Of a stretch of 64,000 nucleotides of DNA, positions 1 through 39,491 are shown one piece after another; the first letter of the stretch is position 1, and every line of letters starts with the position of its first letter. Origin of the DNA: an alpha proteobacterium AAP38 (GTDB lineage: Bacteria; Pseudomonadota; Alphaproteobacteria; Azospirillales; Azospirillaceae); contig LJHR01000004.1 in assembly GCA_001296005.1 (NCBI GenBank), positions 1 through 64,000 of the forward strand. Direction: 5' to 3'. The notes beneath the pieces are model-generated. The model ran no database searches, was not told the origin of the DNA, and was given only the letters and a program-made list of their open reading frames with translations. Made by a program: the position numbers and the translations under genes.

Positions 1-108
1 CTGTTCCGTCGCGTCATGCTGCTCGGTAACGTCGTGCTGTTCCGTCGCGTCATGCTGCTCAGTCACGTCGTGCTGTTCCGTCGCATCATGCTGCTCGGAA
101 GCGTCCTG
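1..108. repeat. Tandem 36-bp coding repeats (two hexapeptides each)
   Basis: Three consecutive 36-bp units (1-36, 37-72, 73-108) differ at only a few bases; the third diverges at its end. On the minus strand each unit encodes two hexads of the type ATEQHD and VTEQHD. The array continues past the left edge, so copy number is unknown. Older, more diverged hexads occur at about 172-243. Near-identity at DNA level implies recent expansion. Confidence 0.9.
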
Positions 109-1449
109 CTTCCCGGCGCTCAGCATATAGTCCCACTGTGACGGAGCAACCGGGGCGCCGCCGTCAACCGGGTCATGCATTTCCTTGGCATCGTGCAGTT
201 CCGATGCGTCATGCAACTCCTCCGGATCGTGCATTTCCGAGGCGTCGGCGCGGACGGGCTTCAGCGGCGTGACGGCGATTTCGCGCGGCGGGGCCTGATC
301 GGCGGCCATGCCGGGGCGCACGATCTGAAGCGACACGGCATGCAGGGCCGGCGCCTTGCGGCCAACCAGGGCCGCCTTTTCATCCTCCGTCAGGCCCGCG
401 AACAGGCTGACATAGGTCTTGGGATCGCGGCGGAAAGCATCGGTAGCACCGGGATTGCCGGCCATCTGCGAGAGGATGCGGTACAGCGCCTTGGAGGTCT
501 GACGCTCCCGCCCACCCAGCGGCTCGCGGCCAAGACGGGCGATGGCATCCATTTCGAACGGGCCGTAATCGCCGGTCGGGCTGACCGGAAGCTGGTCACC
601 GGTCCGGGTGCGGTCAGCCGGACGTTCGATGCCCAGCCGTTCGGCCATATCCGGATCGATGGGCAGAATGTCCTTGGGCGGCAGATAGAAGCTGCAGGCC
701 TGATGCACCGATGCGCGGACAGCCGGATCGCGATAGGCCTTCAGCGGGCGGCGGATGATCTGGCTGTCCAGGCCGGGGAAGGTGGCGCCGACATAATGAT
801 AGGTGGGGTGGTTCTCGCCATAGATCTCGATCAGGCGCTCGAACAGGATGGCGCGCTTGTTGTTCTTGAAGCCCTTCACCGAATAATAGCTGTCACCCAC
901 GGAGCCGACCTGCAACAGCACGACATGGCTAGAGGTCACGACAGGCCGGTTGCGCAGCAGCAGGTCACCGGCATCCAGGATCTGGCAGCCATTGACCGAC
1001 GGATCGATGCGCAGATCGGCAAACAAATAGTCGGTGGAGGAAATGCCGGGCAGCATCTCCGTCCGGTGGCCTTCCTTGCGCGCGATATTCAGGGCGCGGC
1101 GGGCGGGCGACACGAAGAAACCCGGATGGCCGTAGAACACGGCGGTCACGCGCTTGCCCTCGCGCACGGCACGCAGGATCAGTTCGGCCATCTGCACATA
1201 GGTGATCAGGCGGCGCTTGTCCTCGCCATAATGCAGAGCCAGATTATAGGAATTGGGGTTCAGTTCCCGGATGAAACTGGCCGTGACACCATCGGGAACA
1301 CCAAAGAACACGACATCGGCATCACGGATATGGCCGATGGCCTCCTGCGTGAAATGCGAGATCGACCGGATACCCGTGCCGACGACGGTCAGGCTGCCAT
1401 GGGTCTGGCCGGTCACAATCGGCTTGGACAGATCGAAGGAATTGGGCAT
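1..1449 (-). CDS. Fused borosin: OphMA-like peptide-backbone N-methyltransferase with C-terminal hexapeptide-repeat tail (3' end outside window)
   Basis: The reading frame starts at ATG 1449 and is still open at base 1 (483 codons seen). Residues 20-260 are a tetrapyrrole-methylase-fold SAM methyltransferase of the borosin type. Visible motifs are GTG at 24-26, TYVQMAE at 83-89, VFYGHPGFFV at 104-113, MLPGISS and FADLRIDP. Compared from memory with fungal OphMA, catalytic Tyr66, Arg72 and Tyr76 correspond to Tyr74, Arg80 and Tyr84, while Tyr63 is Ala71. Residues 315-372 (TSKALYRILSQMAGNPG, then a GLTEDEKAAL segment) match the clasp/leader or borosin-binding domain, so enzyme and substrate are one chain. 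After a linker, hexads of the form xxE(Q/M/L)HD fill 403-426 and 450-483. Known family members methylate amide nitrogens of their own C-terminus; that this tail is the substrate is inference. AGGGGG and AAGGA lie just upstream of the start. Confidence 0.9.
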   Translation of the reverse strand, partial: MPNSFDLSKPIVTGQTHGSLTVVGTGIRSISHFTQEAIGHIRDADVVFFGVPDGVTASFIRELNPNSYNLALHYGEDKRRLITYVQMAELILRAVREGKRVTAVFYGHPGFFVSPARRALNIARKEGHRTEMLPGISSTDYLFADLRIDPSVNGCQILDAGDLLLRNRPVVTSSHVVLLQVGSVGDSYYSVKGFKNNKRAILFERLIEIYGENHPTYHYVGATFPGLDSQIIRRPLKAYRDPAVRASVHQACSFYLPPKDILPIDPDMAERLGIERPADRTRTGDQLPVSPTGDYGPFEMDAIARLGREPLGGRERQTSKALYRILSQMAGNPGATDAFRRDPKTYVSLFAGLTEDEKAALVGRKAPALHAVSLQIVRPGMAADQAPPREIAVTPLKPVRADASEMHDPEELHDASELHDAKEMHDPVDGGAPVAPSQWDYMLSAGKQDASEQHDATEQHDVTEQHDATEQHDVTEQHDATEQ

Positions 1450-1650: not shown

Positions 1651-2319
1651 ATGATGAGTAGCATGGCGCAATCAACACACAGCGGCCCGCCCCCGGTGGC
1701 GATCATCCTGGCGGGTGGTCTTTCCAGCCGCATGGGCGGTGGCGACAAGGGCTTGCGGCTGCTGGCGGGGGAGCCGCTGCTGGGCCGGATCATTGCGCAT
1801 GTCCGGCGGTGGGGTGATATTGTCCTGCTGTCCGCCAATGATGATGCGGAGCGTTTCGGTCATGTACCGGGGTTGCCCCCCCTGACGGTGGTGGCCGACA
1901 CGGTACCGGACCGGCCAGGGCCATTGGCTGGGATATTGGCTGCCATGGACTGGACCGCCACACACAGGCCGGACCGTACACATATCCTGTGCGTGCCCTG
2001 TGACACGCCCTTCCTGCCCGCCGATCTTTATCCGGCACTGGCGGCTGCGTTGACCGGCGGCGGGGCAGTGGCCATGGCGGTGGGGCCGGATGGCATCCGG
2101 CACCCGACCGTCGCCCTGTGGCCCGTCAGCCTGCGCGAGGACCTGCGCATCGCCCTGCGGGACGAGGGGCTGCGCAAGGTTGGGATCTTTGCCGCCCGGC
2201 ATGGGCGGGTCGACGTCCCCTTCCCCGCCGGTCCGGACGGCATCGACCCGTTTTTCAATATCAACGGCCCGGACGATCTGGTCCGGGCCGAAGGGTTTAT
2301 TCGTAGCGCAGGGCCTTGA
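1651..2319 (+). CDS. mobA: Molybdenum cofactor guanylyltransferase MobA
   Basis: MobA transfers GMP from GTP to molybdopterin to make the MGD cofactor of DMSO-reductase-family enzymes, in the cytoplasm. The nucleotidyltransferase signature LAGGLSSRMGGGDKG lies near residues 20-34, followed by DTVPDRPGPLAGI and the metal/substrate motif CDTPFLP. About 222 residues is normal for the family. ATG 1651 is chosen because the longer open frame (from 1540) adds unrelated residues; ATG 1663 is possible. The gene is divergent from the borosin gene, and its end overlaps the last permease of the ABC operon by 23 bases in convergent orientation. moaD and moaE lie about 42 kb away. Confidence 0.93.
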   Translation: MMSSMAQSTHSGPPPVAIILAGGLSSRMGGGDKGLRLLAGEPLLGRIIAHVRRWGDIVLLSANDDAERFGHVPGLPPLTVVADTVPDRPGPLAGILAAMDWTATHRPDRTHILCVPCDTPFLPADLYPALAAALTGGGAVAMAVGPDGIRHPTVALWPVSLREDLRIALRDEGLRKVGIFAARHGRVDVPFPAGPDGIDPFFNINGPDDLVRAEGFIRSAGP

Positions 2320-4738
2320 CCGGCTTTTCCACGGCCACGCGTGCCGCATGTCCGGCCACGGTGGCCCAGGCGATCACCATGGCCCCCAGACCGGCAACCA
2401 GGAACAGCAGCGGGTCCAGGTCCACACGATAGGCGAACCCCTGCAGCCAGCGGTTCAGCCCGTACCAGGCAACGGGCCAGGCGATCAAGTTGGCGATCAG
2501 CACGGGGCGGGAGAACTGCCAGACCAGCAGCCGCACCAATTGCAGGACGGACGCGCCCAGCACCTTGCGGATGCCGATCTCCTTCGTCCGCCGTTCCGCC
2601 GTGAAGCTGGCCAGGCCGAACAAGCCCAGGCAGGCGATGATGACGGCCAGCCCCGCGAAGGCCGCGAACAGCTTGCCCTGGCGGATATCGTCGGCATAGA
2701 GCAGTTCCACGCGTTCATCCAGGAAATGCCGGCGCGCCGGGACATCGGGCACCATCTCCCGCCACAGGCTGTCGATGCGGTTCAAGGTGGCCGACACGTC
2801 ATCCGGACGGATGCGGACCATCAGCACCCTCGTTTCCAGCGGTTCCGGGTGATAGATGGTGGCAACTGTGCTGTTGCGGGCGGATTTATACTGAAGGTCG
2901 GTGACGACGCCCACCACCTGCAAGGTGATGTCGCCTTCATCCTGGGGGAAATTGATGGTGCGCCCGATGGCTTCTGCCGGGCTGCCCCAGCCGAACTGCT
3001 GTACCGCGGTCGCGGAGATGATGGTGGCGGCCGTCCGCCCCTCCTGGCGAGTACCTTCGGGCAGAGACTTGATTTCGTCGGTCCCGCGCACCTTGTCAAA
3101 GCTACGGCCCGCCACCATGCTGGCGCCCAGCGTTTCGAAATAGCCGAAATCCACCGGCTCAGTCCGGATGGTCACGGTTTCATTCTGTCCGCCCGTGATG
3201 ATGCCGTAGGTCGAGGTCCGTTCCGACGAGTCCGATGGGGCCCAGGGCGCGCCGGCCACGGAGACCACTGCGGGATCGACCAGCAGCCGCTGTTTCATCG
3301 CCTCCAGCTTTGACTTTGCGGCTGCATGTTCAAAACCGCGCAGCAGAACGATATTCTCCTTGTCGAAGCCCAGTTCCTGGCTGCTGGCATAACGGGTCTG
3401 TTCCAGCACGACCAGGGTGCCGACCGTCAGGCCGATGGCGACCGCGAACTGTGCCACGACCAGGGTGGCGCGCAGCCGCCCGCCACCGACACCGGCAGAT
3501 TTGTTGGACCGCAGCACCTGCGACGGTCGGAACCCCGACAGGACAAAAGCCGGATAGATCCCGCCCAGAAGGCCCAGCAGCACGGACAGGCCCAGGGTCA
3601 GCGCGCCCAGCAGACCCTTCCCATGAAAGGCCGAGTCCATCTTGATGTCCAGGGCCGTCTGGAACGGCTCCAGCCCGACCTCCACGATGGCCATAGCCAG
3701 CAGGCCGGCCAGCAGGGTCAGCAGCAAGCTTTCGCCCAGAAACTGCAAGATGATCAGGCGGCGCGGCGCGCCCAGCGTCTTGCGCAGGGCCACTTCGCGG
3801 GCCCGCATGGTGGCGCGCGCAGTGGCCAGATTGACGAAATTGATGGCTGCGATCGCCATGATCAGAGCCGCCAGTGCCATAAGGCCGGAAATGACGGCCA
3901 TGCTGGTCCCGGTGCCACCCGGAAGCGGATGGGTGCGGATATCCAAAAGCGGCTGCAAGCTCAGATCGGCACGATATCCGCCATCCGACCCCGGCGTCGT
4001 GCTGGGGCGGACCCTCGCCAGAAAGTCCTTCAGGTTAGCCTTCAGCCTTTGCACATCAGTATCGGGTGCCAGTTGGAGATAGATTTGCAGCCAGTTATTT
4101 CCCCAGTTCTCCCGCTGCCGTTCCAGGTAGGGGAGCGGTGTGGAAATGGAGATCAGGGCCTCGACCTCGCCCGTCACATTGGACGGCGGGTCCTTCATGA
4201 CACCCGTGACCGTCAGGGCACGGCCATCGACAAGGGTGATGGTGCGGCCCTGCGCGTCCTGGTCGCCAAAGATTTTCGTCGCCAACGCCTTGGTTAGAAC
4301 CGTGCTGTTGGGTTGGGACAGGGCCGTGCGCGGATCGCCCGACAGGAAAGGCCAGTCGAACAGGCGCAGATAATCCACATCCACGGCATTGAAAGTGACA
4401 TAAAGGCTTTCATCCCCGCGCCGCACGATTTCGCGCGTGCGGCCCGATCGGACAATGGTCTCGATCTCGGGGAATTCCTGCTTCAGGGCCGCTGTCATAG
4501 GCATGGACATGGCCGAATGGGTCGCGGGCGGACGGCCCGGCAGATGTTCGGTCCGCACAAGACGCAGGGTCCTGTCCGCATCCGTGAACATGCTGTTGTA
4601 AGACAGCTCATGCCGCACAAAGACCGTGATCAGCAGGGCCGCCGCCAGTCCGGCGGCCAGCCCCAGGACATTGATGCTGGTATAAAGCTTGTGGCGCAGC
4701 AGGTTGCGCAGCGCCACCATGATCCAGTTCCTCAGCAT
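2297..4738 (-). CDS. ABC transporter permease, double MacB_PCD-FtsX (sixth and last of tandem series)
   Basis: This is an 813-residue inner-membrane permease. A cytoplasmic MLRNWIMVALRNLLRHKLY start leads into TM1 (about 20-41). A periplasmic MacB_PCD-like domain follows (about 42-280), then three FtsX-type TM helices (about 283-403), a fifth helix near 425-450, a second periplasmic domain, and three C-terminal helices (about 685-800) containing RRTKEIGIRKVLGAS. The C-terminus EKPVKALRYE is shared by the series. It has no ATPase domain and must use the ATPase at 17289-17969. It follows the preceding permease by 15 bases and is the operon's last gene. The substrate is not evident; this family includes exporters of peptides, lipids and antibiotics. 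Confidence 0.9.
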   Translation of the reverse strand: MLRNWIMVALRNLLRHKLYTSINVLGLAAGLAAALLITVFVRHELSYNSMFTDADRTLRLVRTEHLPGRPPATHSAMSMPMTAALKQEFPEIETIVRSGRTREIVRRGDESLYVTFNAVDVDYLRLFDWPFLSGDPRTALSQPNSTVLTKALATKIFGDQDAQGRTITLVDGRALTVTGVMKDPPSNVTGEVEALISISTPLPYLERQRENWGNNWLQIYLQLAPDTDVQRLKANLKDFLARVRPSTTPGSDGGYRADLSLQPLLDIRTHPLPGGTGTSMAVISGLMALAALIMAIAAINFVNLATARATMRAREVALRKTLGAPRRLIILQFLGESLLLTLLAGLLAMAIVEVGLEPFQTALDIKMDSAFHGKGLLGALTLGLSVLLGLLGGIYPAFVLSGFRPSQVLRSNKSAGVGGGRLRATLVVAQFAVAIGLTVGTLVVLEQTRYASSQELGFDKENIVLLRGFEHAAAKSKLEAMKQRLLVDPAVVSVAGAPWAPSDSSERTSTYGIITGGQNETVTIRTEPVDFGYFETLGASMVAGRSFDKVRGTDEIKSLPEGTRQEGRTAATIISATAVQQFGWGSPAEAIGRTINFPQDEGDITLQVVGVVTDLQYKSARNSTVATIYHPEPLETRVLMVRIRPDDVSATLNRIDSLWREMVPDVPARRHFLDERVELLYADDIRQGKLFAAFAGLAVIIACLGLFGLASFTAERRTKEIGIRKVLGASVLQLVRLLVWQFSRPVLIANLIAWPVAWYGLNRWLQGFAYRVDLDPLLFLVAGLGAMVIAWATVAGHAARVAVEKPVKALRYE

Positions 4739-4753
4739 ATCCCCTGCTCCCCC

Positions 4754-7195
4754 TTATTCATACCGCAAGGCGCGAACCGGCTTTTCCGCGGCTACCCGCG
4801 CCGCATGGCCCGCAACCGTGGCCCAGGCAATGACCAACGCCCCCAACCCCGCCGCCACGAACAGCAGCGGGTCCAGCGCCACACGATAGGCAAACCCCTC
4901 CAGCCAGCGGCTGAGCCCGAACCAGGCCAGCGGCCAGGCGACCAGATTGGCGATCAGCACGGGGCGCGAGAACTGCCAGACCAGCAGACGCACGAGATCA
5001 CCGACACTGGCGCCCAGCACCTTGCGGATGCCGATCTCCTTGGTCCGGCGTTCGGCGGTGAAACTGGCCAGCCCGAACAGGCCCAGACAGGCAATGACCA
5101 CGGCCAGCCCCGCGAAGGCCGCGAACAATTTGCCCTGCCGGACATCCAGCGCGTAAAGCTGCTCAATCCGTTCATCCAGGAACTGCCGGCGCACCGGCAC
5201 CTCGGGCACCATCTCCCGCCACAGGGCGTCGATCCGGTTCAGCACGGCGGGTGCGGCATCAGGCTTGATCCGCACCATCAGGGTGCCGATCTGGCCCTGG
5301 TCGATCTGATAGACAGACGCAACGGTGCGGTCGCGCGCCGTGCGGTATTGCAGGTCGTCCACGACGCCGACGATGGTCAGGGTCACGTCGCCCTCATCCT
5401 GCGGATACATCAGCGTGTGGCCAATGGCGTCCTGTGGACTGGCCCAGCCCAGCTGCCGCACCGCCGACAGCGACAGCAGGGCGGACGCGGTCCGGCCCTC
5501 CACCCGCTGCCCCGACGGCACATCGGCGGCGGCCTCGGCCCCGTATTTCTCATCAAAGGTGCGACCGGCCAGCAGGCGGGCGCCCAGCGCTTCGAAATAG
5601 CCGTAATCGACATTGTCGGTGCGGATGGTGACGCTGGCATTCTGGCCGTCATCGGTACGGCGATAGGCGGCGGTGGTTTCGGCCCCGTCGGACGGAACCC
5701 AGGGGGCACCTGCCACCGCGATGACACCGGGATCGGCCAGCAGCCGCTGTTTCAGGGCCGACAGCTTGGGCTTGGCCGCCTTGTTGTCGGCACCGCGCAG
5801 CAGCACGACATTATCCTTATCGAAACCCAGCTGCTGGCTGCTGGCATACCGTGCCTGTTGCAGCACGACCAGGGTGCCGACGGTCAACGCGATGGCCACC
5901 GCAAACTGTGCCACCACCAGAATGGTGCGCAGCCGTCCGCTGCCGGCATTGCCCTTGCTGTTGCCGCGCAGCACATGGGCGGGCCGGAAGCCGGACAGGA
6001 CCAGGGCCGGATAGATGCCGCCCAGCACACCCAGCACGAAGGACAGGCCCGCCACGATGATCGCCATGGCCCAAAGCTCACGATAGGCGGGATCGATGGC
6101 GACCGACATGGCATCCTGGAACAAAGGCAGCGTCACCTCCACCAGGGCCAGGGCCATCAGGCCCGACAGGAAGGTCAGCAGCAGGCTTTCCCCCAGGAAT
6201 TGCAGCACCAGCAGCCGGCGCGGCGCGCCCAGCGCCTTGCGCATCGCCACCTCACGCGCCCGCATGCTGGCCCGCGCCGTCGCCAGATTGACGAAATTCA
6301 CCGCCGCGATGGCCAGGATGACGGCAGCCAGCGCCGTCAGGCCGGAAATGACGGCCATGCTGGTCCCCTCATCATCGGACAAGGGGGCCGTGTGGACATC
6401 GCGCAGTTTCTGAAGCGTCAGGACGTTGCGGTCGCCCTGGCTTTCATCCTCCACCGCGTTGGGATTGTTCCGGCGCACGAAGTCGGGCAACGCCGCCTCC
6501 AGCCGCGCCACGTCGGTGCCGGGAGCCAGACGCACATAGGTGTCGATCCAGTTCCAATTCCAATGTTCCCGCGCCCGGTCGATGGAGGGCAGCGGCGTGG
6601 ACAGGGCGATCAGCGCCTCTGGCCGGTGGGTGACGTTGACGGGCGGGTTTTCAATCACACCCGTCACGCGCAGGGTGATGCCGGACCCCAGCTCGATGGT
6701 CCGGTCCAGGACATTGGTGGTCCCGAACAGCTTTTCCGCCGTCGCCACCGTCAGAACGGCGCTGTTGGGCTGCGTCAGGGATGATGAAGGATCACCGGAC
6801 AGGAAGCGCCAGTCGAAAATGTCGAAATAGTCGGGGTCCACGGCGGAGAACAGTTGATAAAGACTGTCCCCGTCACGGCGCACCACCTCCCGCACGCGGG
6901 CCACACGCACGGCCTGCACCACCTCCGGGAAGCTCTGTTTCAAGGCGGGGGCCAGGGGGATGGCCTGTGACGCCGTCGGTTCCGGCGCCCGGCCATTGAT
7001 CAGCAGGATGCGGTTGAGCCGCCAGGTGCTGTCGACATTGGCGAACCGGTCATTGAACGACAGCTCATGCCGGACGAACACGGCAATCAGCAACGCCGCC
7101 GCCAGCCCCGCCGTCAGGCCCAGGACATTGATCGCCGTATAGAGCCTGTGGCGCATGAGGTTGCGCACCGCCACCATCAGCCAGTTCCGCAGCAT
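4754..7195 (-). CDS. ABC transporter permease, double MacB_PCD-FtsX (fifth of series)
   Basis: An 813-residue permease with the same eight-helix plan as its neighbours: TM1 at about 20-41, periplasmic domain, FtsX triplet, fifth helix, second periplasmic domain, FtsX triplet. It is closest in sequence to the 2297-4738 protein; the N-terminus, the QEARYASSQ-like segment and the last 130 residues are nearly superimposable. This suggests a fairly recent duplication. The periplasmic domains differ most, so specificity may differ. The gap to the preceding permease is only 12 bases, consistent with cotranscription. Confidence 0.9.
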   Translation of the reverse strand: MLRNWLMVAVRNLMRHRLYTAINVLGLTAGLAAALLIAVFVRHELSFNDRFANVDSTWRLNRILLINGRAPEPTASQAIPLAPALKQSFPEVVQAVRVARVREVVRRDGDSLYQLFSAVDPDYFDIFDWRFLSGDPSSSLTQPNSAVLTVATAEKLFGTTNVLDRTIELGSGITLRVTGVIENPPVNVTHRPEALIALSTPLPSIDRAREHWNWNWIDTYVRLAPGTDVARLEAALPDFVRRNNPNAVEDESQGDRNVLTLQKLRDVHTAPLSDDEGTSMAVISGLTALAAVILAIAAVNFVNLATARASMRAREVAMRKALGAPRRLLVLQFLGESLLLTFLSGLMALALVEVTLPLFQDAMSVAIDPAYRELWAMAIIVAGLSFVLGVLGGIYPALVLSGFRPAHVLRGNSKGNAGSGRLRTILVVAQFAVAIALTVGTLVVLQQARYASSQQLGFDKDNVVLLRGADNKAAKPKLSALKQRLLADPGVIAVAGAPWVPSDGAETTAAYRRTDDGQNASVTIRTDNVDYGYFEALGARLLAGRTFDEKYGAEAAADVPSGQRVEGRTASALLSLSAVRQLGWASPQDAIGHTLMYPQDEGDVTLTIVGVVDDLQYRTARDRTVASVYQIDQGQIGTLMVRIKPDAAPAVLNRIDALWREMVPEVPVRRQFLDERIEQLYALDVRQGKLFAAFAGLAVVIACLGLFGLASFTAERRTKEIGIRKVLGASVGDLVRLLVWQFSRPVLIANLVAWPLAWFGLSRWLEGFAYRVALDPLLFVAAGLGALVIAWATVAGHAARVAAEKPVRALRYE

Positions 7196-7207
7196 GGCCC
7201 CTCTCCC

Positions 7208-9658
7208 CTATTCATAGCGCAAAGCGCGGACGGGCTTTTCTGCCGCCACCCGCGCCGCATGGCCCGCGACAGTGACCCAGGCGATGATCAAGGCACCCAG
7301 ACCGACACCGATGAAAATCAATGGATTGATGGAAACCCGGCTGGCGAACCCTTCCAGCCACAGGCTGACCCCGTACCAGGCCAGCGGCCAGGCGATCAGG
7401 GTGGCCAGCAGCACGGGCCGTGAGAATTGCCAGACCAGCAGGCGCACGATATCGGCCACACTGGCCCCCAGCATCTTGCGGATGCCGATCTCCTTCGTCC
7501 GCCGCTCTGCCGTGAAGGCGGCCAGACCGTAAAGACCCATGCAGGCAATGATGACGGCGAGGCCGGCGAAGGTGGCGATCACTGTCCCCTGACGCGCCTC
7601 CGCCTCGTACAGGCGGTCGATCGTCTCGTCCAGGAACCCGCGATATAGTGGGGTGTTCGGCGCCAGTTGCCGCCAGACATCGCCCACCGCCGCCAAGGTC
7701 GCCTTCTGATCTCCGGGCAGCAGCCGCAGCAGCATCGCCCCGAACTGCGACTGGTCGATCACGAACAGGGCGGCTTCGGCTTCGACGCGCGCAGAGCTGA
7801 ACCGGAAGTCCTCCACCACCCCGACAATATTCAGTATCTGCTGACGCGCGGGTTCACCAACCACACCACCCCGCAACTGCTGCCCCAATGCCGCCGCGGG
7901 GTCACGGACACCCAGCTTTGGCAGCATGGCCCGCGTCACGACAATATTGGCCTCCGCCCTTTCGTGCGGTTCGTTCGGCAGCCTCATGATGTCAGGCCCA
8001 TGTGCTCGGTCGAACAGGCGTCCTGCCAGCAGGGTCGCACCCATCGTTTCCAGATAGCCGAAATCAATGGCTTCCTTGCGCAGATGCACTGTCGCTGTCT
8101 GACCCGGCAGACGGAAACCCATGCTTGCCTTCGATCCCCCTGCCGGCGCCCAGGCGGAGAGGGCGACCGACTTCACACCGGGAAGACGGCTCAATGCATC
8201 CCTCAATGCCTCAAAACGACCGGCCCCACCGTCGGTGGGCAGGCGATTGATGATCAGAACATTCTCGCGGTCAAAGCCCAATTGTTGCGTCGCTGCAAAC
8301 CGGGTTTGATGCAGGATGAACAACGCGCCGATGGCCAGCACGATGGCGATGACGAATTGCGACACGACAAGAGCCGTGCGCAGCCCGCCCCCTGCCGCCG
8401 GCATGCCTTTCGCCCCCGTGGCCACGCCTGTGCGTGACAGGACCAGGGCAGGGTAAAGGCCCGCGACAAGACCCACCAGCGGCGGCAACAGCAGCAGACC
8501 GGTCAGCAGCGCCCGATCCGCGAACGGATCGGCCGGCACCTCAATCTTCAGCAGCCGCAAAAGCGGCAGGATCAGTTCGGTGGCCGGTAGCGCCAGGGCA
8601 CCCGCCAGACTGGCCAGCACAATGGATTCCGTCAGGAACTGCATGGCCAGCCCGGCACGTTTGGCACCCAGCGTACGGCGGATGCCAATCTCCCGCAGGC
8701 GCAGCCCAGACCGTGCCGTTGTCAGATTGATGAAATTGATCCCGGCGACGAGCAGGACCAGCATGCCGGTCAGCAGCATTCCCTGGATAACCGGCATCGG
8801 CGTTCCCGCCTCTCCCGCCACCGGGTTCGTGCGGATGTCGGTCAGGGGCTGCAGCGAAAGGCTGAAAGTGTAGATATCTTTGGCGTCGTTGGGTGACCGA
8901 TAGTCAGGCACCAGAGACGGCAACAGCGTATCAATCTGCCTTTCCAAAGCCGCCGCATCCACACCGGGACGCAGCAGCAGATAGGTGGCGAGCCAGGAAC
9001 TGTTCCACTGCCCTTCCCGTTCGCGAAACTCACGATCCGCCTGATCGCTGACGCTGGTCGCAATCGGAGTCAGAAGACCGGCCCGCAAGCTGGAATTCAT
9101 GGGCGGTTCCGCGATGACGCCTGTTACCGTCAAGGTGCGACCGGACTTCAGCGTCAGCACCTGCCCCATCGCCTCGCCATCGCCGAAATATTTCCGGGCG
9201 GTGCTTTCAGTCAGGACGGCATCACCGGGCCGGGCCAGCGCCAAGGTCGGATCACCCTTCAAGAAAACGAGATCGAAGACCTGGGGATAGTTCGGATCGA
9301 CCCGCAAGGCGGCCTGGATGAACACCTGTCCGTCGGCCCGTTCGACAGAGGTCAGGAACGGGATGGTGCGGACAACCTGTTCCACATCGGGCAGACGCTC
9401 CGCCAGGGCGGGCCCCACCGGCAAACCGGTGACACTTCCGAACCAGGGGGCCTGCCCGGACATGTATTCGATGCGGTTCACCCGCACGATGCGGTCGGCC
9501 TTTTCGTGATAGCCGTCGAAACTGGTTTCAAACCGGACAAGGGTGCCGATGATCATGCAGACGGACAGGCCCAGGGCCAAGCCCACCACGTTGATCGCGG
9601 TATAGAGCTTGTGCCGCAGCAGATGACGCCACGCGATCAGAAGCCAGTTCCACACCAT
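7208..9658 (-). CDS. ABC transporter permease, double MacB_PCD-FtsX (fourth of series)
   Basis: An 816-residue permease with the series' architecture but a more diverged sequence. It begins MVWNWLLIAWRHLLRHKLY, and the first FtsX block contains RLREIGIRRTLGAKRAG where the others have RAREVxxRK. The second block keeps RRTKEIGIRKMLGAS and the C-terminus keeps EKPVRALRYE. The two periplasmic regions show little obvious similarity to those of its neighbours. It starts 35 bases after the preceding permease. Transported substrate is unknown. Confidence 0.88.
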   Translation of the reverse strand: MVWNWLLIAWRHLLRHKLYTAINVVGLALGLSVCMIIGTLVRFETSFDGYHEKADRIVRVNRIEYMSGQAPWFGSVTGLPVGPALAERLPDVEQVVRTIPFLTSVERADGQVFIQAALRVDPNYPQVFDLVFLKGDPTLALARPGDAVLTESTARKYFGDGEAMGQVLTLKSGRTLTVTGVIAEPPMNSSLRAGLLTPIATSVSDQADREFREREGQWNSSWLATYLLLRPGVDAAALERQIDTLLPSLVPDYRSPNDAKDIYTFSLSLQPLTDIRTNPVAGEAGTPMPVIQGMLLTGMLVLLVAGINFINLTTARSGLRLREIGIRRTLGAKRAGLAMQFLTESIVLASLAGALALPATELILPLLRLLKIEVPADPFADRALLTGLLLLPPLVGLVAGLYPALVLSRTGVATGAKGMPAAGGGLRTALVVSQFVIAIVLAIGALFILHQTRFAATQQLGFDRENVLIINRLPTDGGAGRFEALRDALSRLPGVKSVALSAWAPAGGSKASMGFRLPGQTATVHLRKEAIDFGYLETMGATLLAGRLFDRAHGPDIMRLPNEPHERAEANIVVTRAMLPKLGVRDPAAALGQQLRGGVVGEPARQQILNIVGVVEDFRFSSARVEAEAALFVIDQSQFGAMLLRLLPGDQKATLAAVGDVWRQLAPNTPLYRGFLDETIDRLYEAEARQGTVIATFAGLAVIIACMGLYGLAAFTAERRTKEIGIRKMLGASVADIVRLLVWQFSRPVLLATLIAWPLAWYGVSLWLEGFASRVSINPLIFIGVGLGALIIAWVTVAGHAARVAAEKPVRALRYE

Positions 9659-9693
9659 ACGGCCCCCCCTTCCCGGTCCCCGCTAACGCGGCC

Positions 9694-12162
9694 TTACTCG
9701 TGCCGGAGCGCCTTGATGGGGGGGGCCATGGCGGTGGTGGCGGCGTGGCCGGCCACCGTGATCCAGGCGATGATCAGCGCCGTCAGGCCCGCCGCCACGA
9801 AATAGGCCGGCGACAGGTCCACGCGTTGTTCGAACCCGTCCAGCCAGCCGCGCAGCAGCCACCAGGCGATGGGCCAGGCGACGAGGTTGGCGATCATGAC
9901 GGGGCGGGAGAATTGCCAGACCAGCAGGGCCACGATCTGCGCGACCGTCGCGCCGAACACCTTGCGCAGGCCGATCTCCTTGGTCCGCCGCCGGGCCGCA
10001 AAGCCGGACAGGCCATAAAGCCCCAGACAGGCTACCAGGATGGCAAGGCCGGAGAAGGAGGCGAAGACGGTGGCCTGCACCCGTTCCTCATTATACTGGG
10101 CGGCGATCATGTCCTCCACGAAGGCGGCATTGAAGGGCCGGTCGTTGATCATGCGGGCCCAGAGCGACTGCACCTGCGACAGCAGCGCCGACGGATCGCG
10201 CCCGTCGAAACGGATGGAGAGCGTGTCGAACTGGCGTTCGGCCTGGAACATCACGGTCGGCTGTATCCCGTATTTCAGGGACCGGAACCGGACATCCGGG
10301 ATGACGCCGACAATGGTCAGGTCGAAGGGCGCGTTGCCCAGCGTCTTGGTCTTCAGGACACGGCCCACCGCCTCGGCATTGGTGGCAAAGCCCAGCAGGC
10401 GGGCCGCCGCCTCATTGATCATGGCAGAGGCCTGCCCCGTCTCCCCGTCCGCCGGCGGGCGGATCAGGTCGGTACCGAAGGACGGGTTGAAGACACGGCC
10501 AGCCACGGGGGCGACCTTGTACAGTTCCATGAACCCATCACCCAGGCTCTGGTAATTCAATACCTGCCCCTTCTCACCGGAGCCTTCCAGCGTGAAGATC
10601 ATGTTGTTTTCGTTATTGTCGGTGGGCACGTCGGAGGACAGGGCAACGTCTGTCACGCCGGGCAGGCGGCGGACCTGTTCCATCACGGCCTCGCGCGTCG
10701 ACTGGAACCCCGCCCCGCCCAGGTTACGCAGGGCCAGCACATGCTGCCGGTCAAAGCCCAGTTCGGCATTGGTCGCGAAAATGGTCTGGCGATAGACGAC
10801 CAGGGTGATGATCGACAGGCCGATGGCCACCGCGAACTGCATCACCACCAGCAACTGCCGCAGACGCGCGCCACCGCCATCCGCCGCGTCCTCACCCTTC
10901 AGGATGCGGGCCGGTTGGAAGCCCGACAAATACAGCGCTGGGTAGGCACCGCCCAGCAGGGTGACCAGCAGCGACAGGCCCAGCAGCGCCGACAGGAACA
11001 GCGGGTCCAGCAGCGGGATCGACAGGTCCTTGCCCGTCACGCCATTGAAGGCCGGCAGCGCCAGCTCCATCAGGCCCAGCGCCACCAGGATGGACAGAAC
11101 CACCATCACCGACCCCTCGGTCAGGAACTGCGCCACCAGGGAGCGGCGGCGTGCGCCCAGCACCTTTCGCACTGCCACCTCCCGCCCGCGCAGGGAGGAG
11201 CGGGCGATGGCCATGTTGGTGAAATTCACACAGCCCAGCGCCAGGATCAGCAGGGCCACCATGGACAGGGCCGTCACCAGCCCGGCATCGCCCGCCGGCT
11301 TCATATCGCCGATATCGCCAGCCTGCTGCTTGGCATGCAGGCGGATATCGCGGATGGGCATGAAATGCTGGCGCGTGCTGTCGGAGGTGCGGACATTGTT
11401 GTTTTTGTTGGGGATCATCCGGTCGATGAAGGCAGCATTGTCATCGGCCAGCCGGGCGATGTCATCCGCGCGGCGCAGCTTCAGATAGGTGAAGACATTG
11501 ACCGAGGTCCAGGTATCCAGGATGTTGGGAAACCCGGCCAGACGCTGCGGTACGACGGGGGCCAGCATCTCCACCTTCAGATGCGTGTTGAGCGGCAGGT
11601 CAGCGATGACCGCCGTAACGCGGTGGTCATACCGGTCGGGACCGATACAGCAGATGGTCAGGGTGCGACCGATGGGATCGGCATCACCGAAATATTTGCG
11701 CGCCGCGCTTTGTGTCAGCACCAGCGATGACGGGTCCGACAGGGCCGTTGCCGCATCACCTTCCAGGAATTTCAGGCCGAAGATGGCAAGGGCCGCCGGG
11801 TCCGTATAGGTCACGGTCTGCGGAATGACGGTACCGTCGCGCAGGATGGAGGTATCATAGGGGAACATGCGGACCGCCACCTCCACCTGCTCTGGATAGG
11901 CGGTGGTGAGGGCGTCCATCATCCGGCCCGCCGAACGAACAGTGTTGAAGGGCGCGCGGCCCGGTATCTCATAGCTGGTATGGACGCGCACGATGCGGTC
12001 GGCATCGGGCACCCAGGCGTCATAGGACAGCTCGTCCCGGACATGCAGCATGATCATCAGGCAACTGGCCAGACCCACGGCCAGACCGGTGACATTGATG
12101 GCCGTGTACAGCTTGTGCCGCAGCAGATTGCGTACGGCCACCATGACCCAGTTCTTCAGCAT
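9694..12162 (-). CDS. ABC transporter permease, double MacB_PCD-FtsX (third of series)
   Basis: An 822-residue permease. ATG 12162 (MLKNWVMVAVRNLL) is chosen over a longer open frame because it aligns with the conserved start of all six permeases. The architecture is the same: TM1, periplasmic domain, three helices, one helix, periplasmic domain, three helices. The C-terminal block reads RRRTKEIGLRKVFGAT. Its C-terminus (MAPPIKALRHE) departs from the EKPVxALRYE consensus. The gap to the upstream permease is 29 bases. Confidence 0.88.
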   Translation of the reverse strand: MLKNWVMVAVRNLLRHKLYTAINVTGLAVGLASCLMIMLHVRDELSYDAWVPDADRIVRVHTSYEIPGRAPFNTVRSAGRMMDALTTAYPEQVEVAVRMFPYDTSILRDGTVIPQTVTYTDPAALAIFGLKFLEGDAATALSDPSSLVLTQSAARKYFGDADPIGRTLTICCIGPDRYDHRVTAVIADLPLNTHLKVEMLAPVVPQRLAGFPNILDTWTSVNVFTYLKLRRADDIARLADDNAAFIDRMIPNKNNNVRTSDSTRQHFMPIRDIRLHAKQQAGDIGDMKPAGDAGLVTALSMVALLILALGCVNFTNMAIARSSLRGREVAVRKVLGARRRSLVAQFLTEGSVMVVLSILVALGLMELALPAFNGVTGKDLSIPLLDPLFLSALLGLSLLVTLLGGAYPALYLSGFQPARILKGEDAADGGGARLRQLLVVMQFAVAIGLSIITLVVYRQTIFATNAELGFDRQHVLALRNLGGAGFQSTREAVMEQVRRLPGVTDVALSSDVPTDNNENNMIFTLEGSGEKGQVLNYQSLGDGFMELYKVAPVAGRVFNPSFGTDLIRPPADGETGQASAMINEAAARLLGFATNAEAVGRVLKTKTLGNAPFDLTIVGVIPDVRFRSLKYGIQPTVMFQAERQFDTLSIRFDGRDPSALLSQVQSLWARMINDRPFNAAFVEDMIAAQYNEERVQATVFASFSGLAILVACLGLYGLSGFAARRRTKEIGLRKVFGATVAQIVALLVWQFSRPVMIANLVAWPIAWWLLRGWLDGFEQRVDLSPAYFVAAGLTALIIAWITVAGHAATTAMAPPIKALRHE

Positions 12163-12191
12163 GATATCCCCCCTCTCTATCCCTTTAACCG

Positions 12192-14684
12192 TCACTCGTA
12201 CCGCAATGCCTTGACCGGCTTTGCCTGCGCCACGCGGGCGGCATGCAGGCCCACCGTCACCCAGGCGATGGCCAGCGCCACCGATCCGGCGCCCAGGAAC
12301 AGCAGCGGGTTCAGGTCGATCCGGTAGGTGAAATCCGACAGCCAACGATCCATGCAGAACCAGGCCACAGGCCAGGCAATCAGGTTCGCCACCAGCACGG
12401 GCTTGGAGAACTGCCAGACCAGCAGGCGGACAATGTCCGGCACACTGGCGCCCAGCACCTTGCGCAGGCCGATCTCCCTGGTCCGGCGTTCGGCGGTGAA
12501 GCTGGCCAGACCATAAAGGCCCAGGCAGGAGATGAAGATCGCCAGACCCGCAAAGGTCGCGAACATCTGCGAGGTCTTCTGTTCGCGCTGATACTGGTTG
12601 GCGATGTTCACATCGAAGAAGCTGCGCTCAATCGGGCGGTCGGGGATCAGTTCGGCCCAGGTGCGGTCGATCTTGTCCACCACTGCCTGCAACTGCCCGG
12701 CCTTGGCCCGCACAGCCATGGCATGGTGACGGCCCTCGTCGCTGATATACATGACGGCGCGGATGGGCTCATGAACGGAGCGGTAGTGGAAATCCGCCAC
12801 CACGCCGATGACGGTGCCCATCAGATAGGTGGTCATGTTGTCCATGATCTTCACCTGCTGACCCAGGGCCGCAGCCGGGCTTTCATATCCCAGGGTCTTG
12901 ACGGCAGTTTCGTTCAGCACGACGCCGACCGGCAGAAGGATTTCCTTGGTGCCTTCCGGCGGCGGCTTGTTCTCTTTCATCCAGTCGGGACGCTGGACCA
13001 GATCGGTGGCGCGGGTGCGATCGAAGGTGCGACCGGCAACCATGCGCATGCCCAGCGCTTCGAAGAAGCCAGGTCCGACACTGTCCTGGCGCATCACATG
13101 CTGTTCAGGCTTGGTCCCGGTCAGCGGCTCGATCACGGTATTGTTTTCCCCGCCATCGCCGGGGATATGGGCCGCCACACCCACACCGGCGACATTGGGA
13201 TCGGCGCGCAGCATGTCCATGAAGGTCTCGCGCTTCTCCCGCACGCCTTCATCCAGGAAATGGCCGACGATCACGACATTCTCCGTGTCGTAGCCAAGGT
13301 TCTTGTGCTGGGCATAGATGAACTGGCCATAGACGACCGAGGTGGCGACCATCAGGGTGATGGAAATGGCGAACTGCACCACCACCAGCACCGTGCGCAA
13401 CCGACCGGAACCGCCACTGGTGCCGGACCCGGCACTTTTCATGGTCTGGGCCGGGTTGAAGGATGACAGAAGGAAAGCCGGATAGGCCCCGCCGCCGATA
13501 CCGACCAGCAGCACCAGCCCCAGCAGCATGGGCAGCAGCAGCGGGTCCTGGCTGAAATCCAGCACCAGTTCTTTGCCCAGGAACGTGCTGAACCCCGGCA
13601 GGGAAACTTCCACCAGCGCAATGGCGATCAGCAGGGCGAACAGGGTCATCAGCACGCTTTCGCCCAGGAACTGTGACACCAGCTGTGCACGGCTGGCGCC
13701 CACCACCTTGCGCACGCTGACCTCCCGCGCGCGCTGGGTGGCACGGGCGGTCGCCAGGTTCATGAAATTGATGCAGGCGATGATCAGCACCAGAAAGGCG
13801 ACCGCCGTGAAGATGGTCAGCTCTGTCTGGCTGATCCCCGGCGTCACATCGCCGCCCATGGGTTCCGTATGAATGCTGGTCAGCGGACGCAGGTCGGGAA
13901 AGGCCAGGGCAGACAGATCAATGGGGCCCTGCGGCGTCTGCAACGGCGTGAAGGTGCGCTTGACCCATTCCTGCATGCCGGCGCGCAACGGCTCCACCGA
14001 CGCACCCGGCTTAAGCCGCAGATAGGTCTGGCCCTGCGTATTGCCCCAATTCTTTTCTTGTTCGATCATCCAGGTGCCGGCGGGATGACCCATAGGCAGC
14101 AGCACGCCGAAATCCAGATGCGTGTTGCGCGGCAGGCTGGCCACCACCGCCGTCACCTTCAGTTCATACTTGTGATCCAGCGTCAGGGTCTGGCCCAGGG
14201 CCGGCGCATCGCCGAAATATTTCCGGGCCATTTCTTCGGTCAGGACCACGGAATAGGGATCTGTCAGCGCGGTAGCGGCATCACCGGCCAGCAGCGGAAA
14301 ATCAAAGATCCGCAGGAAGGTGGGATCGACCGTGAAGGTCCATTCATAGAATTGCCGGTCACCGACCGATATGATGGCCCGGCTTTGAAGGAAGCGGGTG
14401 AAATCCTCCACCTCCGGATGGGCGTTCTTGAAGGCGGGGCCGAAACCCATCTGGGTATAGGCATTGCGCTCCGGCTTGCGGCCCGGCACATGCCATTCGA
14501 TGGTCGCCTGATAGATGCGGTCCGCGTCCTTGAAGAACCGGTCGTAACCGGTCTCATTGCGAACGTACAAAAGGATCAGAAGACAGGCGGCCAGCCCCAC
14601 GGCCAGGCCCGACAGGTTCAACAGGGCGTGCAGACGGTGACGCAGCAGATTGCGCAGGGCCACCATGATCCAGTTGCGAAGCAT
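12192..14684 (-). CDS. ABC transporter permease, double MacB_PCD-FtsX (second of series)
   Basis: An 830-residue permease starting MLRNWIMVALRNLL at ATG 14684; the frame extends further upstream but without family similarity. It carries RAREVSVRKVVGAS in the first FtsX block and RRTREIGLRKVLGAS in the second, and ends AKPVKALRYE. It pairs with the 14771-17254 protein as the closest relative in the series (shared RAREVSVRKVVGASR and a similar FVRNETxYDRFF after TM1). It is separated from that gene by an 86-base gap holding two hairpins, the widest break within the permease run. Confidence 0.88.
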   Translation of the reverse strand: MLRNWIMVALRNLLRHRLHALLNLSGLAVGLAACLLILLYVRNETGYDRFFKDADRIYQATIEWHVPGRKPERNAYTQMGFGPAFKNAHPEVEDFTRFLQSRAIISVGDRQFYEWTFTVDPTFLRIFDFPLLAGDAATALTDPYSVVLTEEMARKYFGDAPALGQTLTLDHKYELKVTAVVASLPRNTHLDFGVLLPMGHPAGTWMIEQEKNWGNTQGQTYLRLKPGASVEPLRAGMQEWVKRTFTPLQTPQGPIDLSALAFPDLRPLTSIHTEPMGGDVTPGISQTELTIFTAVAFLVLIIACINFMNLATARATQRAREVSVRKVVGASRAQLVSQFLGESVLMTLFALLIAIALVEVSLPGFSTFLGKELVLDFSQDPLLLPMLLGLVLLVGIGGGAYPAFLLSSFNPAQTMKSAGSGTSGGSGRLRTVLVVVQFAISITLMVATSVVYGQFIYAQHKNLGYDTENVVIVGHFLDEGVREKRETFMDMLRADPNVAGVGVAAHIPGDGGENNTVIEPLTGTKPEQHVMRQDSVGPGFFEALGMRMVAGRTFDRTRATDLVQRPDWMKENKPPPEGTKEILLPVGVVLNETAVKTLGYESPAAALGQQVKIMDNMTTYLMGTVIGVVADFHYRSVHEPIRAVMYISDEGRHHAMAVRAKAGQLQAVVDKIDRTWAELIPDRPIERSFFDVNIANQYQREQKTSQMFATFAGLAIFISCLGLYGLASFTAERRTREIGLRKVLGASVPDIVRLLVWQFSKPVLVANLIAWPVAWFCMDRWLSDFTYRIDLNPLLFLGAGSVALAIAWVTVGLHAARVAQAKPVKALRYE

Positions 14685-14710
14685 CGTTCTCCCCCCTCTT
14701 GGTAGCCCCA

Positions 14711-14762
14711 TCCCTGAACCAGGGAACCCTTGCGGGTCCGGTCCCCACCGGACCCGCAAGGG
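14711..14762. promoter_or_regulatory. Two adjacent intra-operon hairpins
   Basis: Between the first and second permease genes lie a perfect 16-bp inverted repeat with a CCCC loop (14727-14762; arms CCCTTGCGGGTCCGGT and its complement) and a 6-bp hairpin (TCCCTG-AAC-CAGGGA, 14711-14725). There is no U-run after either on the transcribed minus strand, so an mRNA-processing or stability element is as likely as a terminator. Confidence 0.7.
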
Positions 14763-14770
14763 CCAGTCGC

Positions 14771-17254: not shown

Positions 17255-17288
17255 GGCAGATCCCCCCGGATGCCGTGGGCCGCGATCA

Positions 17289-17969
17289 TCAGGCAGCGCG
17301 CAGGTTCTCGGCCACGACCTGTCCGTCGAACAGGTTGATGATGCGTGTGGCGTACTGGGCGTGCGGCATGGAGTGGGTGACCATGACGATGGTGGTGCCT
17401 TCGGCATTCAGTTCGGTCAGCATGCGCATGACCTCGTCGCCATTGGCGCTGTCCAGGTTACCGGTCGGCTCGTCCGCCAGCAGCATCTTGGGCTTGGCGA
17501 CGACGGCGCGGGCGATGGCCACGCGCTGCTGCTGACCACCCGACAGCTGCTGCGGCAGGTGACTTTCACGGTGGCCGATATTTACCTTCTCCAGGGCGGC
17601 CTTGACGCGTTCCTTGCGTTCACGCGCGGGGATGTCGTGATAGAGCAGGGCCAGTTCGACATTCTCGAACACGGTCAGCTCGTCGATCAGGTTGAAGCTC
17701 TGGAAGATGAAGCCGATATTCTTCTTGCGGATATCGGCCAGCTTGCGCTCACCGTATTTCGACACCTCCTCGCCATTGAACCAGTATTGGCCGCTGCTGG
17801 GCGTATCCAGCATGCCGACAATGTTCAGCAGCGAGGACTTGCCGCAGCCCGACGGGCCCATGATGGCGACGAATTCGCCGTCACGAACATGGATGTTCAC
17901 CGAATTCAGCGCCGTGGTTTCAACTTCCTCGGTGCGGTAGGCCTTGACCAGATCAACCAGCTTCAACAT
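17289..17969 (-). CDS. ABC transporter ATP-binding protein (MacB/LolD type)
   Basis: A 226-residue cytoplasmic ATPase that would power the six permeases. The Walker A motif GPSGCGKSS lies at about residues 38-46. The Q-loop is FIFQSFNLI, the signature is LSGGQQQRVAIARA, Walker B is MLLADEPTGNLDS and the switch is VTHS. The DEPTGNLDS form and short length are typical of the LolD/MacB/FtsE mechanotransmission group. ATG 17969 (MLKLVDLVKAY) has AAGG just upstream; the longer frame from 18038 lacks a ribosome site and family similarity. It is the only ATPase in the operon. Confidence 0.95.
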   Translation of the reverse strand: MLKLVDLVKAYRTEEVETTALNSVNIHVRDGEFVAIMGPSGCGKSSLLNIVGMLDTPSSGQYWFNGEEVSKYGERKLADIRKKNIGFIFQSFNLIDELTVFENVELALLYHDIPARERKERVKAALEKVNIGHRESHLPQQLSGGQQQRVAIARAVVAKPKMLLADEPTGNLDSANGDEVMRMLTELNAEGTTIVMVTHSMPHAQYATRIINLFDGQVVAENLRAA

Positions 17970-18017
17970 TCCCTTGGTCCTTCCTGCTAAGATTTCGTTT
18001 TCCCTCAAGCGCCGGGC

Positions 18018-18033
18018 GCCGCCATCCGGCGGC
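18018..18033. promoter_or_regulatory. Short GC hairpin between adaptor and ATPase genes
   Basis: GCCGCC-ATCC-GGCGGC forms a 6-bp stem in the 72-base gap between the adaptor and ATPase genes. Without a U-run on the minus strand it is unlikely to terminate efficiently. Confidence 0.4.
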
Positions 18034-18041
18034 ACCAAGCC

Positions 18042-19304: not shown

Positions 19305-19336
19305 GATGCCCACTCCCTACCCTTGTTTGGTGCCGG

Positions 19337-38105: not shown

Positions 38106-38198
38106 GTTTGCATCGATGCTGATTTGTCCATGACAGCGCTGGTTGCATGCCTATACTGATATCGACCGGATGACCGGCCGAAGATGCTGGCGGTGGGC

Positions 38199-39410: not shown

Positions 39411-39491
39411 CGGATAGGGAAAGCCGCTTGGCGGCGGACCCTATGCACAATATGGTTAACACGGGGTAATTGTATACAGGCGGGCGGGGCG

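Follow-up and report, generated by a model that had tools for sequence, protein, structure and literature searches.

A fused borosin precursor of Azospirillaceae whose repeat tail co-varies with the sensor half of a neighbouring histidine kinase

The window analysed here, the first 64,000 nucleotides of a contig of the alpha proteobacterium AAP38 (G000:C34:1-64000), begins with a minus-strand gene for a fused borosin precursor, in which a methyltransferase, a clasp and a tandem-repeat tail are joined in one chain. In the clade to which this gene belongs, the borosin is followed by a histidine kinase, and among close relatives the repeat word of the tail and the sensor half of that kinase change together between conserved flanks. 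This co-variation suggests, on comparison of sequences, a new kind of peptide signal. Bacterial borosins have few known products and no assigned role in the literature examined, of which the papers cited below were covered in part; in this clade the kinase partner is constant and its sensing half changes with the core, which makes function directly testable.

The fused precursor and its repeat tail

An ATG opens the frame at position 1449, and the frame stays open to the window's first base. When the genome's own DNA was searched, the repeats were found at one further place, the end of contig C29 (locus L005), where they continue in frame on the same strand through 11 hexads and end in ...EQHDALEQHVTEK before the stop codon. 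The ends of C29 and C34 share an exact overlap of 33 nt and, assuming that the two join, the precursor has at least about 548 residues (483 + 76 - 11). Its parts are as follows:

1-1449, minus strand: fused borosin precursor (methyltransferase, clasp, repeat tail); 5' end complete, 3' end cut by the contig edge and continued on C29
625-1404, minus strand: alpha-N-methyltransferase domain (residues about 16-275; PF00590 at residues 20-225)
1132-1212, minus strand: stretch with R80, Y84 and Y106 (R79, Y83 and Y105 of the borosin KchMA)
334-552, minus strand: clasp or borosin-binding region (residues about 300-372, from the OphMA alignment to residue 362 and the family alignment)
172-243, minus strand: first repeat block, hexads ASEMHD, PEELHD, ASELHD and AKEMHD (172-246 according to Tandem Repeats Finder, TRF)
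103-171, minus strand: non-repeat spacer with WDYMLSAGK (WDYLLSAAK in a relative from the C8 metagenome-assembled genome (MAG), L039)
1-102, minus strand: second repeat block, [A/V][S/T]EQHD hexads (1-110 according to TRF)
L005:14984-15214: end of the tail on C29, 11 hexads; if the 33-nt overlap is genuine, about ten of these come in addition to those in the window

Since the contig terminates within the repeat and the junction depends on the 33-nt overlap, one might suspect a broken gene or a repeat created by assembly. We regard this as scarcely credible: complete borosin genes, with the kinase next to them, are present in G006, N. lacus (G009), G002, G010 and G004, and three other drafts (G003, G005, G007) are broken at the same spot, with matching repeat units on their kinase-bearing contigs. 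In G006 and N. lacus the locus is unbroken, and the order of genes is permeases, mobA (called in G006, absent from the calls of G009), borosin, kinase, small open frames and two more conserved genes. As judged from sequence, the window gene is a real and apparently intact fused bacterial borosin of known class. Four genomes of this set are draft assemblies broken within the repeat tails; because drafts break at such places, precursors of this type are truncated in databases.

An earlier note on this DNA had described the frame as an OphMA-like methyltransferase fused to a clasp, with a charged, repetitive tail in place of the core. All three parts hold. OphMA matches residues 16-362 of the window protein at 1.3e-72, so that the alignment extends through the clasp, which is fused C-terminal to the enzyme, and the motifs quoted in the note are present. 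Further matches are to MroMA (2.5e-70, query residues 17-390), SonM (9.4e-34) and the Pfam family TP_methylase (PF00590, 5.5e-18). KchMA, the type III fused borosin of Kitasatospora cheerisanensis, provides the roles of the conserved active-site residues (PMC11395268): its catalytic and cofactor-binding Y73, R79, Y83, Y105, S136 and Q179 correspond to Y74, R80, Y84, Y106, S137 and Q180 in the window. R80, Y84, Y106 and Q180 are invariant in 32/32 aligned rows, and Y74 and S137 in the 11 clade rows aligned. The KchMA positions C49, Y70 and F188 are occupied by G50, A71 and Y189.

The DNA of the tail consists of tandem 18/36-nt repeats. The note had allowed that the repeats might belong to some unrelated domain; on C29 they run to the stop codon without one, and the tail as a portion of such a domain is ruled out because the stop comes after the last repeat. 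The tail thereby stands where a core is expected, at the C-terminus of the same chain as the enzyme and not in the split (Class 2) layout, an agreement in position and not in chemistry. It is acidic and periodic in hexads, and the strict acidic alternation of type III cores is not seen.

In the true frame, most differences between codons one period apart are silent, with a pooled ratio of nonsynonymous to synonymous differences (pN/pS) of 0.36 over 17 repeat sequences, compared with 1.25, 1.75, 1.06, 0.56 and 1.55 in the five other frames. The true frame has the lowest value in 16 of the 17, the exception being the separate precursor of G012 (0.52 in frame vs 0.50 in one reverse frame). Repeat units entered this test without selection by amino-acid motif; the 17 sequences count G000 as two pieces, include the G012 precursor and, coming from related species, are not independent. 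The predominance of silent differences shows that the repeats are kept as protein, and on this test a chance origin of the repeat frame is excluded.

Were the tail no substrate, with the enzyme methylating something else in trans, the repeats could drift. Their turnover is indeed fast: in the enzyme region G006 and N. lacus each share 85-86% identity with the window, and their tails are 20% identical to one another. The low pN/pS of the true frame, the placement of the core as in known borosins and the presence of repeats of the same kind on the split precursor of G012 speak against drift, and we consider a substrate in trans very unlikely. That the precursor would methylate its own tail is, from these comparisons, what we hold to be likely.

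The linked kinase and the variable block

The next gene after the borosin, read from the same strand, encodes a GAF histidine kinase. Counts of named loci are based on the best 80 of 344 relatives, which gave 79 loci, 12 of them in the clade; the kinase follows the borosin in all ten clade loci with flank, and in the remaining two (L039, L040) the sequence stops within the tail. The kinase has no orthologue at the 67 named loci outside the clade, several of which have short flanks; weak kinase matches (52-73 bits) occur in 4/67, the one at L114 beginning 1.6 kb downstream. A TPR region was found in the seven kinases scanned from Niveispirillum and its kin (L005, L024, L025, L026, L028, L029, L030), and Reg_prop and Y_Y_Y domains in the one Nitrospirillum kinase scanned (L031). 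Across 82 genomes, a TPR-GAF part lies beside a borosin in 11, which are the same 11 that carry a non-Nitrospirillum borosin (in G000, G003, G005 and G007 the adjacency spans a contig break). A careful tree separates these 11 borosin-side TPR kinases as one group from 12 paralogues elsewhere (97/97). G001, of the same genus, is without a borosin and has the paralogous kinase only; G008, also without a borosin, has a partial kinase match only.

The comparison of G000 with its close relative G006 delimits a variable block between conserved parts:

1-729, minus strand: window part of the variable block, from residue 241 to the end by sliding identities; the block continues on C29 and reaches approximately kinase residue 500

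Identity is 85-100% over enzyme residues 1-240 (40-residue windows) and falls to 55-80% over the enzyme end (241-360). The tail word changes from EQHD to ELND, and the TPR sensor (kinase residues 1-500) is 22-68% identical per window, before identity returns to 92-100% in kinase residues 501-950 (50-residue windows). G005, of which the enzyme start (103 residues) is 99% identical to G000, yet has the word and the sensor of G006, and the borosin-side sensor of G000 is 44-45% identical to those of G006 and G005. The sensor of G000 is instead 74% like that of N. lacus, the tail of which also repeats EQH and ends EQHVTDK, compared with EQHVTEK in G000. Trees show the same mosaic: on TPR data G000 groups with G009 (100/99), and a grouping G000+G005+G006 is rejected (p-AU 7.7e-5); kinase-core and enzyme data reject G000+G009 (1.2e-5 and 0.0014). 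The groups in these tests were named after seeing the data, and G005 was left out of the enzyme tree.

Across nine genomes, in a post hoc test, 3-mer similarity of the tails follows sensor identity after controlling for identity in the kinase core and the enzyme (partial r 0.84, 0/5000 permutations); when the near-duplicates G005 and G010 are dropped, partial r is 0.66 in seven genomes (63/5040). The paralogous kinase served as a control: its TPR part is 98-99% identical between G000 and G006/G005 and 90% between G000 and G009; this control covers 8/9 genomes and leaves out the paralogue of G004, the most distant in the kinase tree. Set against this paralogue, which shows no such shift, the borosin-side sensor changes fast, and together with the tail.

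Because the tail adjoins the sensor, the two could travel in one recombination block and need not match in function, which counts against reading them as partners. The variable block is contiguous, and tandem repeats recombine easily, so that tail and sensor might co-vary only as neighbours. Such an account leaves unexplained how the sensor has come to differ by more than half in backgrounds that are 98-99% similar, and why the kinase core and the TPR part of the paralogue stay alike; we consider it unlikely. Precursor and sensor are linked and co-vary between conserved flanks, as in pheromone loci, with physical linkage a possible cause of the covariation.

The paralogous TPR-GAF kinase itself has, at L152 (G000:C15), L153, L155 and L156, neighbours without a recognised peptide link, and in G018 and G004 it adjoins peptide-transport genes (two of the six paralogue loci read, of 12).

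A clade of polar repeat cores and its known relatives

The enzyme was found at E<=1e-15 in 15/59 relatives searched and at E<=1e-30 in 18/82 Azospirillaceae genomes, in 4/13 genera. In a quick tree, 54 hand-picked rows were compared, namely 49 of the 79 named loci together with the window and four further loci. With long branches flagged elsewhere, it places 17 rows, the repeat tails together with the split enzyme of G012, on one side of a branch (SH-aLRT 99). The repeat units differ between species:

G006 (L024): AELNDA
N. lacus (L025): [T/A]EQH[E/V] pentads
SYP-B3756 and RU38E: A[T/S]EEH[D/I/V]
C8 MAG: AGENHD
Bodden MAG: AAEDHD/ATEQND
Aerophototrophica: EQDAAELSS-x
most Nitrospirillum: VQDQNVSTED or VQEQNVSVED
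G028: EELNEHNDV
G022: a unit of 13 residues

In the sequences compared, the tails contain 23-37% D/E, no Cys, few K/R (0-6) and few aromatics (0-2). A strict His-Asp metal-binding repeat was considered and dropped, since several relatives (G006, Aerophototrophica and the Nitrospirillum tails with VQDQNVSTED) have units with no His.

G012 presents the same elements in split form. Its enzyme, 60% identical to the window enzyme and placed within the clade, has lost the fused repeat tail and retains a short, non-repetitive one only; just upstream, on the same strand, a 125-codon frame encodes VAELSGGELD repeats, and downstream lies a kinase of the same family. In Class 2 split borosins, enzyme and binding domain stay together and the core is separate (PMC11395268), and by its sequence the layout of G012 fits this description. 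An N-terminal hydrophobic core in G012 was considered and dropped: the Trp/Pro-rich frame arises when the separate precursor gene is read out of frame. One enzyme family with many polar cores, and one member with a separate core gene, amounts to a natural test of substrate scope.

The note had also held that the combination of fused architecture and charged core was undescribed. This does not stand, as KchMA, likewise bacterial and fused and with a long acidic core, has been published (PMC11395268). The published residues C49, Y70, Y73, R79, Y83, Y105, S136, Q179 and F188 identify KchMA with our locus L056, numbered from MTDGQ. It receives up to 11 methylations, mainly on nonpolar residues and on some Asp (PMC11395268), and in the L056 sequence the methylated stretch, 742-796, is an acidic alternating tract. 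Like the window protein, KchMA is bacterial, joins methyltransferase, clasp and a long acidic C-terminal core in one chain, and has the same catalytic residues. Unlike it, KchMA (40% identity) has about 370 residues between the end of the clasp and the methylated stretch, a core without a short tandem repeat, and flanks without a kinase match.

Other known systems were compared as well. RceM is listed among types V, VII and VIII (PMC11395268); G012 is RceM-like and shares with the window its clade, the downstream kinase family and acidic tandem repeats, but has the repeats in a gene of their own, of 125 residues. The fungal OphMA and MroMA share methyltransferase, clasp and C-terminal core, but their core is short, hydrophobic and macrocyclised by a peptidase (PMC11285071, PMC12235650). 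SonM/SonA, the split type IV system of Shewanella, has a homologous methyltransferase domain, but a separate precursor with its own binding domain and two methylations (PMC8429565). What appears new, in terms of sequence, is a clade with repeat cores whose tail co-varies with a linked sensor kinase. This form was not found in the literature searched, which did not extend to the surveys of split borosins by Cho et al. and by Imani et al. (cited in PMC11285071), and the clade locus was not found in the part of PMC4340629 covered.

Borosin-like proteins outside the clade were noted as well. A second fused borosin-like protein of about 1,000 residues, carrying a stretch rich in DDNDD, is encoded at L033:5167-8208 (G003) and L034:5499-8396 (G009), in frames of about 1,015 codons; it was rejected as a family member, as it belongs to a separate clade and has no kinase match. 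Similar long proteins occur at L054, L055, L057, L064 and L088, with relatives in Bacteroidota; L034 has a CFI-box match below the cut-off, and a cytochrome P450 gene adjoins L033. At L121, on plasmid AZO_p2 of Azospirillum lipoferum 4B, a 2397-bp gene encodes a borosin-like protein 38% identical to the window enzyme; the plasmid is typed as conjugative, and no kinase lies near the gene in the incomplete annotation.

Proposed function and genetic surroundings

We propose that the enzyme domain uses S-adenosylmethionine to methylate backbone amides of the tandem-repeat tail, on the tail of the dimer partner if it acts like OphMA; within each hexad, the small aliphatic residues are the most likely sites. 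Either intact or after cleavage into peptides, the tail would be the cognate ligand of the adjoining histidine kinase, and the two would diverge together as a specificity block. In comQXP and agr, conserved flanks enclose a variable block that takes in the peptide, a portion of the enzyme that modifies it and the sensing part of the receptor kinase, and RNPP-type receptors are TPR receptors. By analogy, the clade locus would resemble the former in layout and its kinase the latter in being a putative TPR receptor; it differs from all three in that enzyme and peptide form one borosin chain and in that the putative receptor is a TPR-GAF kinase, and we claim no homology. The likeness to pheromone loci, with a conserved enzyme and kinase core and a variable clasp end, peptide and sensor, is why the tail is taken as the likely ligand, a role for the linked kinase that we favour by a little. 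The explanation as a whole (fused precursor, methylated tail, kinase ligand and specificity block, leaving release aside) appears to us evenly balanced.

Several observations weigh against it. At the position of KchMA Tyr 70 (A71 in the window), A, S or T is found in 11/11 clade rows; judged by its spacing to the conserved Arg, we infer that this Tyr corresponds to SonM Y58, the Phe mutant of which has a 15-fold lower kcat (PMC8429565). With Tyr in 14/32 rows only, the residue is not universal among borosin rows. In polarity the tail far exceeds fungal cores, and in engineered KchMA-TEV charged residues were unmethylated at the tested site (PMC11395268). No release protease was recognised beside the gene, for which no systematic search was made, and Pfam found no ATPase domain in the called kinase frame of G012 (L029). 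The Niveispirillum kinase has no predicted membrane segment, so that a secreted signal would need re-import. Stem-loops predicted between tail stop and kinase in several genomes, including G000 (without a shuffle control), make co-transcription of borosin and kinase uncertain. Finally, the tail-sensor correlation rests much on the pair G000-G009.

The full-length protein might also stay uncut, its tail serving as an intracellular scaffold or metal buffer without any ligand role. A cytosolic TPR kinase and tails rich in D/E and N/Q/H would suit this view. His-free units in several relatives argue against a fixed metal role, however, and neither the repeats of G012, which form a separate small protein, nor the co-variation of tail and sensor agrees with it; we judge it quite unlikely.

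Another alternative accepts the self-methylated core and makes it an antimicrobial or other secondary metabolite, with the kinase controlling only production or tolerance. Toxin-immunity pairs, too, can diversify as blocks. Exporter genes lie upstream of the borosin, including, in G002, an NHLM (bacteriocin-type) system of a peptidase-containing family, with the same gene families in G010, and the borosin product omphalotin A is nematicidal (PMC11285071). On the other side, no exporter was recognised near the borosins of Aerophototrophica and Nitrospirillum, where most neighbours are unscanned, and the part that varies is the sensor domain of a kinase. This alternative is, in our view, rather unlikely.

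Release of the tail and signalling between cells would carry the proposed ligand role a step further, and we advance it tentatively. More tentatively still, the clade may be a family of cell-cell signals built on borosin chemistry, with lineage-specific words (EQHD, ELND, EEHI, ENHD and others), exported peptides and a co-diversifying kinase as reader. Backbone methylation would make the exported peptides resistant to proteases; TPR-GAF or, in Nitrospirillum, propeller-type histidine kinases would read them, with a peptide transporter first bringing them back into the cell where the kinase is cytosolic; and clasp, tail and sensor would be exchanged as one specificity block, like pherotypes. 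Export, re-import and intracellular sensing are possible, each of them an inferred step. At L031, the other side of the Nitrospirillum borosin holds an SBP_bac_5 peptide-binding protein and a second GAF kinase.

In the window itself, the gene is neighboured by two groups of transport genes:

2297-17407, minus strand: six MacB/FtsX-type permease genes, co-oriented tandem paralogues (two by family scan, the rest by similarity)
17289-19313, minus strand: ABC ATPase and HlyD-type adaptor beside the permeases

The array is a possible exporter, and its membership in the borosin system is uncertain; six permeases with one ATPase and one HlyD protein look unusual in number. MobA (1540-2319), between borosin and permeases, was dropped as a member of the system, being a housekeeping gene on the opposite strand. 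Just behind the tail stop lies a long GC-rich hairpin (L005 about 14930-14975, minus strand), very similar to one in N. lacus, which is a possible terminator or attenuator. Convergent with the kinase are several small open frames of 50-54 residues each at L005:10617-12004 (plus strand) and L024:11971-13351 (minus strand). They are of two kinds, MKMTDLTNK... and MSAYLNAAAHD..., both conserved between G000 and G006, with one frame of the first kind also on L160 (G007); the two frames tested had no Pfam match.

Near Nitrospirillum borosin loci, L031:13341-15323 encodes a radical-SAM peptide C-methyltransferase (rSAM_ocin_1) and L037:12028-12294 a small Os17-type precursor, which would bring two kinds of peptide methylation close together. 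Farther into the window, 38184-40718 holds two tandem 409-codon genes with similar N-termini.
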